Positions 17,810 through 25,649 of a DNA stretch of 25,835 bases are shown in pieces. Made by a program: the position numbers and the translations under genes. The notes under the pieces are model-generated. The model was not told the origin of the DNA. It saw only the letters and a list, made by a program, of their open reading frames with translations, and did not search any database. The number at the start of each line of letters is the position of its first letter. Within the stretch, counting starts at the first letter, position 1. The DNA comes from a virus, in the IMG/VR virus record IMGVR_UViG_3300049445_000073, positions 1 to 25,835 of that record. The stretch is one strand, 5' to 3'.

Positions 17810-18355
17810 ATGCCCAAGGTCGATCATACCCCAAAACCGCTGCCATCGCTCGACTACCTGCGGGAGTGCTTTACCTACGACCCGCAGACCGGCGCGCTCA
17901 CTTGGTGCAACCGGCCGCGCGAGCACTTCAGTCACAGCCGCAGCTGGGCGCTGGTAAACACCCGGCAGACCGGGAAGACCGCAGGGCGCATCGCTAGCAA
18001 CGGCTACTACGCCGTCAAGCTCGACCAGACCTACTTTAAGGCCCACCGCATCGCCTGGAAGCTGATGACCGGCGACGAGCCGCCGCATACCATCGACCAT
18101 ATCAACGGCGTTCGCAGCGACAACCGCTGGGCTAACCTGCGCGCCGCAACGAAAGCGCAACAACAAGGAAACCGGCGACACGCCGACAACAACACGTCCG
18201 GGTATCGCGGCGTAACCCGTCAGGGAAACGGATGGCAAGTATCGATTAGCGGGAACTATCTTGGCTACTTCAGCACAAGAGAAGAAGCCGCCGCAGCATA
18301 TAACGCTGCGGCGGTTAAGGTATTCGGAAAATTTTTCCGAGAACCTCATAAGTAA
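17810..18355 (+). CDS. HNH endonuclease with AP2 DNA-binding domain (homing type)
   Basis: 181 residues, on the opposite strand to all neighbours except the terminases. GAGGAG lies a few bases before the ATG. Residues about 79-115 form an HNH module: AHRIAWKL, TIDHINGVRSDNRWANLR, with His79, His97, Asn99 and Asn109 as likely active-site or metal residues. Residues about 128-180 form an AP2 domain (NTSGYRGVTRQGNGWQ, YLGYFSTREEAAAAYNAAAVKVFG), which binds DNA. HNH-AP2 proteins are free-standing homing endonucleases common in phages; they cut DNA lacking the gene and spread by repair. The stop abuts the convergent capsid stop with no base between. Its probable target is the cognate capsid-adaptor junction. 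Confidence 0.92.
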   Translation: MPKVDHTPKPLPSLDYLRECFTYDPQTGALTWCNRPREHFSHSRSWALVNTRQTGKTAGRIASNGYYAVKLDQTYFKAHRIAWKLMTGDEPPHTIDHINGVRSDNRWANLRAATKAQQQGNRRHADNNTSGYRGVTRQGNGWQVSISGNYLGYFSTREEAAAAYNAAAVKVFGKFFREPHK

Positions 18356-21245: not shown

Positions 21246-22742
21246 TTAATAAGCCTGTGCGTAGTTGGGGTAATCCTGGGGCTGCGTGATATTAAGCGCG
21301 ATATTCTGCGGATCGGCCGGGTTGTTGGGTGCCGGCGCGGCGTACTCGTTGCCCCACGACCACTTCAGGTTAGCGTCGCCGGAGTCGGGGCCGGACGGAG
21401 CTAAGGCAGCAATCGGCTGGGCCGGCACTACCGGTAGTGGCATCTGCTGTTGTGCGGGAAGCTGATAGCTCGAGCTGTCCGGCATCTGAGTTTGCTGGGC
21501 GAAGGGATCGCCGGGATGCTCGGTGTAATTAAACTTCCACGGGTCGCCTTCGGTCGGGGTCAGGGTCATCGGTGTGCCCGCTTCGGCCGGGGCACTGAAG
21601 GGGTCGTGCTCGACCGGGGTGAGCTGAAAATTCCGCCCTTTAAGCAAGGGTCCGTGCCCGGTATCGACCAGTTGCTCGCTACCCGGCGCGTAGCCCGGCA
21701 TGCGCGAGGGCAGCTGATAGTTGCCGGTAGTTCGTTGCTCCGACGCCTGCCGCGCCTCGGTCTCGCCGGCTAGCCTCTGATATTTGTCAAAGGCGTCATT
21801 GCGCATACGCCTAATGGAGTCAGAAGCTACCGCTGCCCGGGTAAACTGCGTAATCACGTCCTCCGGGAGCTTACGCATCTCGGCAGAATAAGCCTGCATC
21901 ATCCCAGGATACTTATCGGCCTCGCCCTCCGCCATTACACGCCAACCCGAGCGCAACGTATCAGGATCGGCACCTGCCTTCTCGACGGCGCTGACAGCCG
22001 CGTCGAGGCCTTCGCGCGCCGCCTTGGCCTGCTTGTCAAAATCATCGGGGTAAAACCGCGTGTCGAGATCCGACCCACCCTGTCCAAAAGTCCCCTCGCC
22101 GTGTTTTTCCTGAATGCCGTGCTGCAGCTCGTGGGTCAGGTCGCCGATAATCTCCTGTTCGGTGTTGCCGCTCCGCGATAATTTGACCGTATTGGTGTGG
22201 GAACTATAGCTAGCGCGGACACCCGCAGAAGCATCAGGGTCCAGAAAGCCGATTGTAGCGCCGCGCAGTTCGGGGTAGGCCTGATAGAGGCTAGGGCTGT
22301 CAAACACCGACCCCAGTGTCGCCCCGACCATCGAAGATTTGAGCTTAAAGTTTTCCGGAACCGGGTCATGTTTAGCTATAACCGGCTGACCTATCGGACT
22401 TGTCTGCCGGTAGACGCTCGCCGGCGACCCTGGATTTATATCGAATGCCGCGCGGTTAAGTTTACTATTGTCGTCGCGCAGTATCCACTTCCACTGCCAG
22501 TCGGGGGCGAGATACCACCCGGTCGACTGGAAAATACTATCGGCGTTGTGGCCCGCCTCGGCCATGTCCTGCGCCACCCTGACAGGCTGACCGGGGCCGA
22601 TCTGCGGGGGAGCCAAGGATTTTACCCAGGACGGCGCGTCCTCGGGACCGGCGAGTCGAGCCGCGCCCTTCTCGCCGCCCATCATCACCGGCGTGATGTA
22701 CGGATTTTGGGTTGGCAGGTTTCCTATGGCGCGCATCGTCAT
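21246..22742 (-). CDS. HExxH metallopeptidase of the phage polyvalent-protein type
   Basis: 498 residues, start ATG overlapping the portal stop as ATGA. Residues about 68-95 read SIFQSTGWYLAPDWQWKWIL, and about 145-185 read SPSLYQAYPELRGATI; both are patterns that precede the metallopeptidase domain in phage polyvalent proteins. The zinc motif is His204-Glu-Leu-Gln-His208 (DLTHELQHGIQEKHG), with a distal RLAGETEARQA segment (Glu327, Glu329) that probably gives the third ligand. The C-terminal 150 residues are Pro/Gln-rich with repeated YQLP motifs. The family is known from large proteins injected with phage or plasmid DNA; here it stands alone between portal and head genes, so it may be packaged, or may process virion proteins. 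Function is inferred. Confidence 0.78.
   Translation of the reverse strand: MTMRAIGNLPTQNPYITPVMMGGEKGAARLAGPEDAPSWVKSLAPPQIGPGQPVRVAQDMAEAGHNADSIFQSTGWYLAPDWQWKWILRDDNSKLNRAAFDINPGSPASVYRQTSPIGQPVIAKHDPVPENFKLKSSMVGATLGSVFDSPSLYQAYPELRGATIGFLDPDASAGVRASYSSHTNTVKLSRSGNTEQEIIGDLTHELQHGIQEKHGEGTFGQGGSDLDTRFYPDDFDKQAKAAREGLDAAVSAVEKAGADPDTLRSGWRVMAEGEADKYPGMMQAYSAEMRKLPEDVITQFTRAAVASDSIRRMRNDAFDKYQRLAGETEARQASEQRTTGNYQLPSRMPGYAPGSEQLVDTGHGPLLKGRNFQLTPVEHDPFSAPAEAGTPMTLTPTEGDPWKFNYTEHPGDPFAQQTQMPDSSSYQLPAQQQMPLPVVPAQPIAALAPSGPDSGDANLKWSWGNEYAAPAPNNPADPQNIALNITQPQDYPNYAQAY
21426..21439. repeat. Dispersed palindrome, copy 8 (in gene)
   Basis: CACTACCGGTAGTG perfect. In the metallopeptidase gene it reads CTA CCG GTA GTG (Leu-Pro-Val-Val) inside the Pro/Gln-rich tail. 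Confidence 0.88.
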
Positions 22743-25021
22743 CGCACTTGAAGGTATTTGCCCTGCCTGCCGGGCCGGGGGTCAGGTATGTAGTGAAACC
22801 CATCGGGTGCCAACCTAGCGCCCGGCAACGGCGGCGGTCCCGGTGGTGGTCCCGGCGGCGGTCCCGGTGGTGGTCCCGGCGGCGCGCCTGGGCCGCCCCC
22901 AGGAGGACCGCCGACACCTAGCGCCGCGCCGACCGGACCCTGGCCCACGGCTTTCGAGGCGGCCATCGCAAGCTGTGCCTGCTGGGCTACCTGTTGCTGT
23001 TGATTTTGCGCCTGTTCTTTCTGTTGGAGCGTATCGTCGTCGGGCACGATGTCGTCGGGCATCCCCAACCCGCTGGCAAGCGCGCGCAATACTCGACCGC
23101 GACCGGTCATCCCGACGATGCCCATATCCATCGGATTAGCGGTTATTTGTAAAAACTGGAGTTGTTTCTGGTTCTCGGTTTCTTTCTGGAGGGCTACGAC
23201 CACACCGTTTACTTTAATTTGTTCATCCCCCGACAGGAGGCCAGACTGATCGGTCAACATAATCATGTCATACAAAGATTGCAGGACGCCGTGCATCACG
23301 TCGACATCGACGTTGGCCGCTACGGTCTGCAGGACTTTCTGGGCGTTGCCCATCAACATGGAGAGGCCGGACGCTGTTCTCCCAGCGCCGCCGGAGACCG
23401 CCTCGCCGGTGGTGTACCTCGGTATCGCCGAGGTATCATCACCCATCGCGTTCATGCTCTGGTAGATCGTGATGAGTTCCTGGGCGTTGGACTGCGGCTG
23501 GAAAAAGGTAATCGGCTGCTGGGTGGAACCCAGCGGATCGGAGTTAACTTTCCAGCGTTTCCACGGGTAGAGCTGGTCCTCGTTGTTGGTGGGATCTAGT
23601 AGTTCAGTGTTGATCACCACCTGCGGGCCAGAAGCTATGCTCATATTGTTGACGAGCGCGCGCAAAGTTGCATTCGCAACTTCCTGGATGTCTTCCAGAA
23701 TATCCGGCAGCCCGTGCCCGGCGATGTTGCCGGGGACTTTCTCGAAGCTGGTGATGTAGTAAGGGTGTCGTCTTCGCGGGGACGGGGTGATCTGGGTTTT
23801 GATGGTGTGACGACCAACTACCCAAGACTGCACCAAGTAATCACGATCAGGGTCAGGGATCTGACTTTCATCGACACCCTCGTCGAGCAGGGTCGTCCCT
23901 TGTATGTTCCCATGATACTCGATCGCGTCTATTAGGTTGGACCTGTTCTGTTGGGGTGCTTCCCGGCCGGCGTTGAGCGCGGCCTCGGTGTCGGGCGCGT
24001 CCATCCAGTCGCGCAGCCCGTGTGAATAATCCTCCAGCGCCGCCCTGACCGCCGCGTCGTTGTAACCGGGCAACCCCAAAACATCGTTGAGGTCCTTGCG
24101 GGATAATTTTTTGCGCTCGATCAGCTCGGAGTTCTCTACTGAAGTAGCGCCAGGGTCCCAATAGAGGTTAAACGGGTCGACGCGTTCCCAAAAGAGTTGG
24201 GGTACGGTATCCATCTGCGGCTGGCGGTTAACCCAGGTTAATTTCGACACCATGCGCACCACCGGCCCCTTCAGCACGGCGAAGGGAAACAGCGCCAGAT
24301 CGACCAGGAACTCGGCCAACGCGTCGTAGAAGTTACCGGCCTCGAGGATGTCCTCGACCTTGTTGGACGCCGCCTCGGCCTGCAGGTCCGCTGTACGTTT
24401 GGCGGCCTGCTGCGCTTGGCGGACCATCGAGACAAATCTTGCACGCACGTCGATCGGCTGGGGCGGCATGCCCACCTGAGCATGGGCCTCCCCTGCCTCG
24501 CTGGCGATAAGCTGGGCAATGGAACTCATGATCTCAGGCGGCACCGGCGGGTCAGGCTGCGGGTCGATCGACCACGGGCGCTCGGCACCCAAGTAAACAT
24601 CCCGAAGTAAACTGGTGGCCCCCCGGCATTTTACTGCGACTATTCTTGAATAAACTTCACTCCCGCCGAATTTTCTGATCTCGGCCAGCTTAGACGGGTC
24701 GTACTGCCCCTCGAACATACGTTGTGCTCGTAACAATCTTTCGTTCAGAGGGTTCCTATTCTGATTGCGGTGGTTGCGCATCGCATCCCACCGTGTGCGA
24801 ATGTAATGGCCCAGATCGTCGGGGGTTTGCTGGACAGGGCCTCGTAAACGCGCGTTCTCCTCGGCGGTTCGTTGGTCAAGCTCGGCGGGCGAGATCACCC
24901 GGAGAAACCCGGGACCACTCTCGCGAGACAAGGGGATTACGTTAACTCCCGCACTACCAGTAGACTGCGGGGTCGAGTACCTTGGCCCGGGAATAGGCAG
25001 GGCGTTCGCCAAACTGTACAC
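22739..25021 (-). CDS. Portal protein
   Basis: 760 residues from a GTG start near the putative late promoter. The body matches podovirus portals: a helical N-terminal region (NERLLRAQRMFEGQYDPSKL, SEVYSRIVAVKCRGATSLLRD), FPFAVLKGP, FNLYWDPGATSVENSELIERKKLS, SWVVGRHTIKT, GHGLPDILEDIQEVANATLRALVNN (the channel helix region), AIPRYTTGEAVSGGAGRTASGLSMLMGNA and a long C-terminal helix. The C-terminus has a Gln-rich coil (QQKEQAQNQQQQVAQQAQ), then a PPG repeat tail before a final basic segment. Portals form the dodecameric ring for DNA packaging and tail attachment. The exact start is uncertain: no strong Shine-Dalgarno is visible. Confidence 0.92.
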   Translation of the reverse strand: MYSLANALPIPGPRYSTPQSTGSAGVNVIPLSRESGPGFLRVISPAELDQRTAEENARLRGPVQQTPDDLGHYIRTRWDAMRNHRNQNRNPLNERLLRAQRMFEGQYDPSKLAEIRKFGGSEVYSRIVAVKCRGATSLLRDVYLGAERPWSIDPQPDPPVPPEIMSSIAQLIASEAGEAHAQVGMPPQPIDVRARFVSMVRQAQQAAKRTADLQAEAASNKVEDILEAGNFYDALAEFLVDLALFPFAVLKGPVVRMVSKLTWVNRQPQMDTVPQLFWERVDPFNLYWDPGATSVENSELIERKKLSRKDLNDVLGLPGYNDAAVRAALEDYSHGLRDWMDAPDTEAALNAGREAPQQNRSNLIDAIEYHGNIQGTTLLDEGVDESQIPDPDRDYLVQSWVVGRHTIKTQITPSPRRRHPYYITSFEKVPGNIAGHGLPDILEDIQEVANATLRALVNNMSIASGPQVVINTELLDPTNNEDQLYPWKRWKVNSDPLGSTQQPITFFQPQSNAQELITIYQSMNAMGDDTSAIPRYTTGEAVSGGAGRTASGLSMLMGNAQKVLQTVAANVDVDVMHGVLQSLYDMIMLTDQSGLLSGDEQIKVNGVVVALQKETENQKQLQFLQITANPMDMGIVGMTGRGRVLRALASGLGMPDDIVPDDDTLQQKEQAQNQQQQVAQQAQLAMAASKAVGQGPVGAALGVGGPPGGGPGAPPGPPPGPPPGPPPGPPPLPGARLAPDGFHYIPDPRPGRQGKYLQVR
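22830..22877. repeat. Two 24-base direct repeats (PPG tail of portal)
   Basis: Two identical adjacent units starting GGCGGCGGTCCCGG encode repeated Pro-Pro-Gly steps near the portal C-terminus. The tract is prone to slippage and may vary among relatives. Confidence 0.75.
24952..24965. repeat. Dispersed palindrome, copy 9 (degenerate, in gene)
   Basis: CACTACCAGTAGAC: left arm intact, one central mismatch and two at the right end. In the portal frame it encodes Ser-Thr-Gly-Ser near residue 20. Confidence 0.5.
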
Positions 25022-25040: not shown

Positions 25041-25068
25041 TTTATACCTTTAAGTTTGACGTTAGCAA
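25041..25068 (-). promoter_or_regulatory. Candidate sigma70-type promoter for the late operon
   Basis: On the minus strand TTGCTA (25068-25063) and TATAAA (25046-25041) are 16 bases apart, in an unusually AT-rich 64-base gap between the divergent portal and terminase genes. The implied start is near 25034, giving a leader of about 13 bases before the portal GTG. No equally good plus-strand promoter was found. Confidence 0.42.
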
Positions 25069-25085
25069 TAGTAGCGAGGTCTGAA

Positions 25086-25649
25086 GTGGCTTTGCCGATG
25101 GTCCTCGACCAAAATCCCTATCATGACGACGCGCTGATCCAGCGATTACAATACGATCTCGCGACGGGGATGCACCAGCCCGACGAGATCGCCCGGCGGT
25201 ACGGGCTAAAAGACAAAAACGAATTAAGAAATTACCTGCGGCAGCACCCGATGCTGGTCGAGGAAGCCCGCAAAATCAAGGCGTTGTTTAATTCGGCAGA
25301 GGGAACTGAGACTAGGGTACGAGCGAAGTTCCAGCGGGCGACCGAGGAGCTGATCGTACCCATAGCTCACGTCGTGCGAGATCCCTTAACCCCCGTAGGC
25401 GCGCGGATTGACGGTTTTAGGCAACTTCAGAGAGGAGCTGGCCTCGACGGAGTGAGCGCGCTGGCCAGGGGAGATGGCGCGGGCCGGCAAACCGGGACTG
25501 CGTTTAACCTGACGATAAATTTCGCTGGGGGTCGCCAAGAGGTGATCTCCGGCACGACGGTGCTCGACGCCGACAGCATACCCCCGCCGTCCTCCGGTCA
25601 GCTGCTCACTACTGGTAGTGAGGAAGACTATCCCGAGGAAGAAGTCTGA
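25086..25649 (+). CDS. terS: Terminase small subunit
   Basis: 187 residues from the GTG at 25086, chosen because GCGAGG lies six bases upstream; a TTG at 25056 would add ten residues. Residues about 28-55 form a helix-turn-helix (GMHQPDEIARRYGLKDKNELRNYL), followed by helices EEARKIKALFNS, TETRVRAKFQRATEELI and a PVGARIDGFRQLQRGAG segment. A beta-like NLTINFAGGRQEVI follows, then an acidic tail (EEDYPEEEV). The family recognises the packaging site and activates the large subunit. It runs away from the portal and shares one base (TGATG) with the large-subunit start. A palindrome copy lies in the disordered C-terminal tail. Confidence 0.82.
   Translation: MALPMVLDQNPYHDDALIQRLQYDLATGMHQPDEIARRYGLKDKNELRNYLRQHPMLVEEARKIKALFNSAEGTETRVRAKFQRATEELIVPIAHVVRDPLTPVGARIDGFRQLQRGAGLDGVSALARGDGAGRQTGTAFNLTINFAGGRQEVISGTTVLDADSIPPPSSGQLLTTGSEEDYPEEEV
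25607..25620. repeat. Dispersed palindrome, copy 10 (in plus-strand gene)
   Basis: CACTACTGGTAGTG, one central mismatch. It encodes Thr-Thr-Gly-Ser in the small terminase tail and is followed by AGGAAG, 29 bases before the large-subunit ATG. Confidence 0.75.

Follow-up and report, generated by a model that had tools for sequence, protein, structure and literature searches.

Based on our analysis, we propose that a 498-aa protein encoded directly behind a phage portal gene is a zincin effector, an optional component of the virion that is docked at the portal through a pair of short motifs and is probably ejected, a reading that we consider fairly likely. The gene lies in the window, by which we mean the whole 25,835-nucleotide stretch analysed (IMG/VR record IMGVR_UViG_3300049445_000073); the window is a metagenomic fragment, and most of the other loci compared are also metagenomic contigs. 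The wider proposal is that many unrelated tailed phages share a plug-and-socket loading of interchangeable effectors, in which the portal tail binds PVDHDPF, and to which a second pair (an FKGGDP..WEKV tail with PWEKY motifs) runs parallel. That proposal seems to us evenly poised between right and wrong.

The cargo gene and its predicted fold

On the minus strand, the portal and cargo genes are followed by three ORFs of 64, 127 and 99 aa, and these in turn by a scaffold-like gene (phrog_13678) and that of the major capsid protein (Table 1). The cargo ATG overlaps the portal stop codon as ATGA (22739-22742), the coupling noted in the preliminary description of this DNA. That description had also placed the gene between portal and scaffold; it does adjoin the portal, but the three small ORFs separate it from the scaffold-like gene. 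Immediately beyond the downstream end of the major capsid gene, the opposite strand encodes an HNH_3 endonuclease of 181 aa (17810-18355, +). A divergent gene of 197 aa with a weak phrog_36773 match (25056-25649, +) lies upstream of the portal; its counterpart in a sibling record (L003:3172-3921, -) is followed by a terminase-like ORF on the same strand.

Table 1. Features of the cargo locus, in window positions
Feature	Positions	Strand	Basis or remark
Metallopeptidase cargo gene, LPD23 + zincin (predicted), stand-alone, 498 aa	21246..22742	-	ORF calls, Pfam, alignment, AlphaFold2
Portal gene, SU10-type, phrog_332/1216	22739..25021	-	overlaps cargo gene by ATGA
LPD23 domain, cargo residues 56-96	22455..22577	-	Pfam
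HELQH, residues 204-208; assigned zinc ligands H204 and H208, assigned general base E205	22119..22133	-	alignment, model
GETEAR, residues 326-331; E327 the probable third zinc ligand	21750..21767	-	alignment, model
PVEHDPF, residues 376-382, proposed plug motif; L009 DNA breakpoint (21614) within	21597..21617	-	
Portal C-terminal tail codons LPGARLAPDGFHYIPDPRPGRQGKYLQVR, proposed socket	22742..22828	-	sibling comparison, tail scans
Cargo C-terminal end, about residues 457-498; placed like the C-terminus of tail-less sibling portals	21249..21374	-	

Only LPD23, a domain without known activity, and a metallopeptidase were detected in the window protein by Pfam. The LPD23 match (E 5.6e-10) passes the cut-off and accounts for the conserved patterns previously noted upstream of the active site; the region of HELQH also gives a weak match (E 0.043) to the metallopeptidase family DUF6782. 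Both HELQH and the later GETEAR, the motifs on which the first assignment was based, are present, and their residues H204, E205, H208, G326, E327 and R331 are near-invariant across 16 aligned relatives. A search of the fetched loci with an HMM built from the closest members gave about 20 distinct relatives. HExxH, whose loss in close homologues had been named as evidence against the assignment, is kept in all of those that span the site, and GExx[AS]R in nearly all. The near-invariance in the 16 relatives and the retention of HExxH in the wider set indicate conservation beyond chance. A sequence search of the PDB with the cargo gave no significant match, and ART-PolyVal, looked for across the window's own record, was not found there.

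The AlphaFold2 model of the cargo core is mostly confident (pLDDT 75-95 in most ten-residue blocks of residues 51-336), and residues 373-498 are mostly below 50. HELQH falls on a predicted helix (195-213) with three strands ahead of it, and GETEAR on a predicted helix at 325-335, a placement that, with its near-invariance, makes E327 the probable third zinc ligand. Searching the PDB with the whole model of the window protein gave results dominated by a helical insert, with sigma-factor and coiled-coil structures, and a few IrrE/PprI matches (Z 5.7-5.8, spanning residues 71-337) appeared among unrelated helical ones. We repeated the fold search with the AlphaFold2 core of a loop-poor relative that has a short insert (L021). 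This core matched mainly zincins: IrrE/PprI, Spartan, selecase, the lethal factor catalytic domain, Wss1, ArdC, CapP and PPEP-1. The Z-scores are low (3-4.8), so that the support for the fold lies in the families matched. The top viral structural matches were large-polyvalent-protein domain (LPD) proteins. A zincin core is thus consistently supported by the predicted structures, short of proof, and together with LPD23, HExxH and GExx[AS]R these matches bear out the earlier naming of the protein as a polyvalent-type metallopeptidase. Its zinc binding and peptidase activity are putative.

An accessory gene in an exchangeable slot

We compared 51 IMG/VR loci with related portals, and the cargo gene proved to be an accessory gene, lacking from most sibling phages. 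In about 21 records, the 64-aa gene comes immediately after a tail-less portal and the slot is empty; some of these portals are 77-81% identical to that of the window. The metallopeptidase occupies the slot in the window, L008, L003/L009, L020-L023 and L209. The slot of L014 instead holds an ART-like, non-peptidase-like protein. In L029, where the portal has a C-terminus of a third kind, the slot is taken by an unrelated open frame. This frame (L029:7124-8758, about 545 aa, without a clear start) resembles by eye a cell-wall peptidase of the D-Ala-D-Ala carboxypeptidase type (M15). On the portal tree, the presence of cargo changes state at least three times, two of the changes being forced by well-supported branches.

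From its place in the head-gene cluster, the protein had been likened to a prohead protease, an enzyme that would cut capsid, scaffold or portal during assembly. A location between the portal and a scaffold-like gene would suit such a maturation protease, but the gene is missing from the siblings with the closely similar portals just described, which have the same portal, scaffold and capsid order. No metallopeptidase homologue was found anywhere in eight sibling records, six of them of 59-63 kb and none certified complete, and L014 carries its non-peptidase-like cargo in the same slot. The absence from siblings argues strongly against a role that the clade needs for head maturation; this reading is largely refuted, and we regard it as highly improbable.

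The body of the enzyme can also change while its surroundings stay. L009 and the window share 95% protein identity in the portal and 99.7% in the capsid, and their DNA is 88% identical up to the cargo start. Across the cargo body there is no DNA match but for 93 nt, and 92% identity resumes from 21614, inside the PVEHDPF codons. Breakpoints at the cargo start and within HDPF suggest that the enzyme body was exchanged and the C-terminal end retained. In this nearest sibling (L003/L009), the cargo is a 940-aa protein whose N-terminal ART-like region, recognised by eye from an HGSPHDF motif and given no score by Pfam, precedes a metallopeptidase 50% identical to that of the window; the ART-like region is an addition to the LPD23 and metallopeptidase that make up the window cargo.

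The C-terminus of the metallopeptidase in L209 and L021 clearly resembles that of tail-less portals (QAQGNQPPMPQ...VNTVTQ; PPVNTVSP), a likeness that is degraded in the window. From this, the cassette seems to lie inside what is a single portal gene in other siblings, by insertion or by deletion there. HNH_3 endonuclease ORFs of 168/169 aa stand between portal and metallopeptidase in two records (L003:6136-6642 and L023:10250-10759), where they assume the ATGA overlap; the first bases are common to L003 and the window (ATGACGATG). Endonucleases at this junction may be drivers of cargo exchange.

Paired motifs at adjoining gene ends

Among the siblings with cargo, every portal ends in PGAxxAPDGxHYxxDPRPGRxGKYxxV; no such cargo lies behind any of the tail-less sibling portals read, and wherever a clade portal has both the tail and readable downstream DNA, the cargo ORF is always next. 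The sibling cargoes carry PVxHDPF-type repeats, the truncated L020 and L023 copies stopping short of that region. In the window, a portal tail of the form DGxxYxxDP..RPG..KYLxV is followed by a gene with PVxHDPF. The general arrangement is a portal C-terminus with the consensus GARxAPDGxxYVPDPxRPGKYLxV and a next gene that bears PVDHDPF.

When IMG/VR was scanned for PVDHDPF, an HDPF ORF lay directly behind 35 of 38 distinct tails. A second scan used the tail alone (RPGKYLMV), avoiding selection on the cargo motif. The strict motif P[VI][DE][HYN]DPF was present in 27 of 33 next ORFs and in 2 of 1,226 other ORFs of at least 100 aa (Fisher p 1e-47; the rows include near-copies). Four of the six exceptions carry one-residue variants (PVDHNPF, PVDHDPY and, twice, PVDHDPW). 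Of the other two, L199 has its motif ORF alongside in a different frame, and L162 has the motif one gene away. The pair recurs in each of the nine clusters into which the upstream proteins fall at 30% identity. The tail is a conserved feature common to 27 aligned non-redundant carriers, which belong mostly to the portal families phrog_156, 12082, 1216, 18470 and 332.

Searching INPHARED by tblastn with the tail consensus gave one convincing isolate, the otherwise unrelated Pseudanabaena phage Pam5, in which a lysozyme-domain protein, and not the portal, bears the tail, and HDPF repeats open the product of the next gene. The HDPF consensus gave no tblastn matches in INPHARED. A tail match in Bradyrhizobium phage BDU-MI-1 was weak (E 5), lay amid a run of small hypothetical genes and was set aside. 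A tail scan of genome contigs returned 12 stretches, with the pair in one (Bradyrhizobium, L218) and none in the Bacteroidetes stretches. The Bacteroidetes contigs L220, L223 and L229 encode proteins that reach about 2,300 aa and have a similar end (GNPAWFVADPERPGKYLMVK), and the next ORF is without HDPF. Six loci (L062, L072, L082, L099, L100 and L131) encode large HDPF proteins of about 770-1,120 aa that start with M(A)SSPNDYDVxPVDHDPF or similar. No GKY tail was found upstream of these six, which may mean that the cargo motif pairs with something else.

The proteins that carry HDPF, at the N- or the C-terminal end depending on the protein, are diverse. Forty were sorted by domain: ART-PolyVal in ten, DUF7178 in five, LPD23 in two, and InPase, GNAT, histidine phosphatase, WHH nuclease and cell-wall hydrolase in one each. 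Among the cargoes are thus ADP-ribosyltransferases and stand-alone metallopeptidases as well as a pyrophosphatase, an acetyltransferase and a nuclease. The separateness of the gene, stressed in the preliminary description, holds in the window but is not unique to it: L106 and L164, whose tailed portals (phrog_156 and phrog_1216, respectively) are unrelated, also have a stand-alone metallopeptidase of this family as the next gene, L160 has one a gene further on, and in L103 one with a C-terminal HDPF comes just before the portal gene.

A second pair has the same layout. Gp60 of phage H66 is a giant protein that contains a segment homologous to the window metallopeptidase and whose annotation states that mass spectrometry verified its presence in the virion. 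PWEEF repeats open gp60, and FKGG...NWEKV closes gp59, the product of the gene upstream. In a scan for the FKGG..WEKV tail, 106 of 108 usable terminal tails had PWxxY/F/H/D near the start of the next ORF, a motif found there in 35 of 8,836 other ORFs. At these loci (L230-L309 and L007:404-13854), the tail reads GYRFKGGDPxxxxxWEKV and the next protein has PWEKY/PWEEF-type motifs. The carriers tested belong to phrog_11341, phrog_13634 or no family and are not portals. That two dissimilar peptide pairs share one arrangement argues for a functional rather than an accidental coupling.

The main rival to docking is passive linkage: tail and cargo gene would form one mobile cassette that moves as a unit, and their co-occurrence, which does not in itself show binding, would reflect shared history without interaction, the enzyme perhaps being an effector all the same. 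Tail and motif do stand at adjoining gene ends, where one DNA segment could carry both, and the HNH endonuclease ORFs at the L003 and L023 junctions would fit such movement. Yet the pair persists although the cargo domains differ widely and HDPF may stand at either end, the cargo body is swapped while both peptides remain, the upstream proteins fall into nine dissimilar clusters, and the second, dissimilar pair is arranged alike. We consider passive linkage unlikely. The tail/HDPF pairing is apparently unreported: we found no description of it, or of a docking signal, in the literature searched, which covered few subscription papers and leaves novelty unproven.

Proposed mechanism and known systems

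We propose the following scheme, in which physical docking, packaging, ejection and proteolysis are all inferred. PVxHDPF near the cargo C-terminus would pair with the C-terminal tail of the portal made from the preceding gene, and this pairing would keep the enzyme within the head, at the channel through which the DNA leaves. The enzyme would then leave the virion and enter the host with the first DNA; judged from its context, the metallopeptidase is plausibly ejected in this way. Once there, its substrates may be proteins of the host or of its defences, or the enzyme itself.

For polyvalent metallopeptidases, Iyer et al. (2017, PMC5512222) proposed either autoprocessing or an action on proteins of the host. 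The first of these options would make the cargo a virion processing enzyme that acts on itself, the HDPF tail or other packaged proteins, with no host effector involved. The sibling copy fused behind an ART-like region would suit this role, but the window copy has no fused partner, and the slot and motif also serve cargoes for which the domain search returned no peptidase. The lone-domain form makes it more likely that the target is something else than a fused partner, and a pure processing role appears to us quite improbable.

The enzyme is of a known kind, and its setting suggests a general loading of effectors next to the DNA exit channel. If our docking proposal is true, the signal could predict which phage proteins get packaged and injected, many genes behind portals would become candidate early effectors (ADP-ribosyltransferases, proteases, nucleases and acetyltransferases), and the exchange of effectors between phages would be easier to explain.

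The cargo recalls the polyvalent-protein zincins (Iyer et al. 2017) in its LPD23, its HExxH and the later glutamate of GExx[AS]R, and the giant proteins of Pseudomonas phages AF, 8P, F116 and H66 contain a segment homologous to it. Polyvalent proteins are described as joining two to 15 domains of disparate activities in one polypeptide and as entering the host along with the DNA (Iyer et al. 2017); their zincins usually form a single domain within a protein about 2,000-5,000 aa long. In contrast, the window cargo stands alone at 498 aa, in an exchangeable slot behind the portal, and has the HDPF motif. The gp59-gp60 type pair of H66 and F116 resembles the present one in having an upstream-gene tail and a repeated short motif that opens the next giant protein, and differs from it in the letters of the peptides and in its carriers, those tested not being portals. 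Capsid-targeting sequences route injected effectors into the head in the case of the T4 internal proteins and P1 DarB (PMC9024508). These are likewise short peptide signals, by analogy with which HDPF is a candidate; for them we found no partner peptide described in the papers searched, whereas the motif here is paired with a specific C-terminal tail, usually that of the adjacent portal, across several portal families. Known fusions of MuF or portal domains with effectors (PBECR, 2H and InPase; Iyer et al. 2017) share with our scheme the coupling to the portal vertex for delivery, and InPase occurs in both; there the effector is part of the fusion, whereas here it is encoded by a separate gene and its apparent coupling, by short motifs, would be non-covalent.
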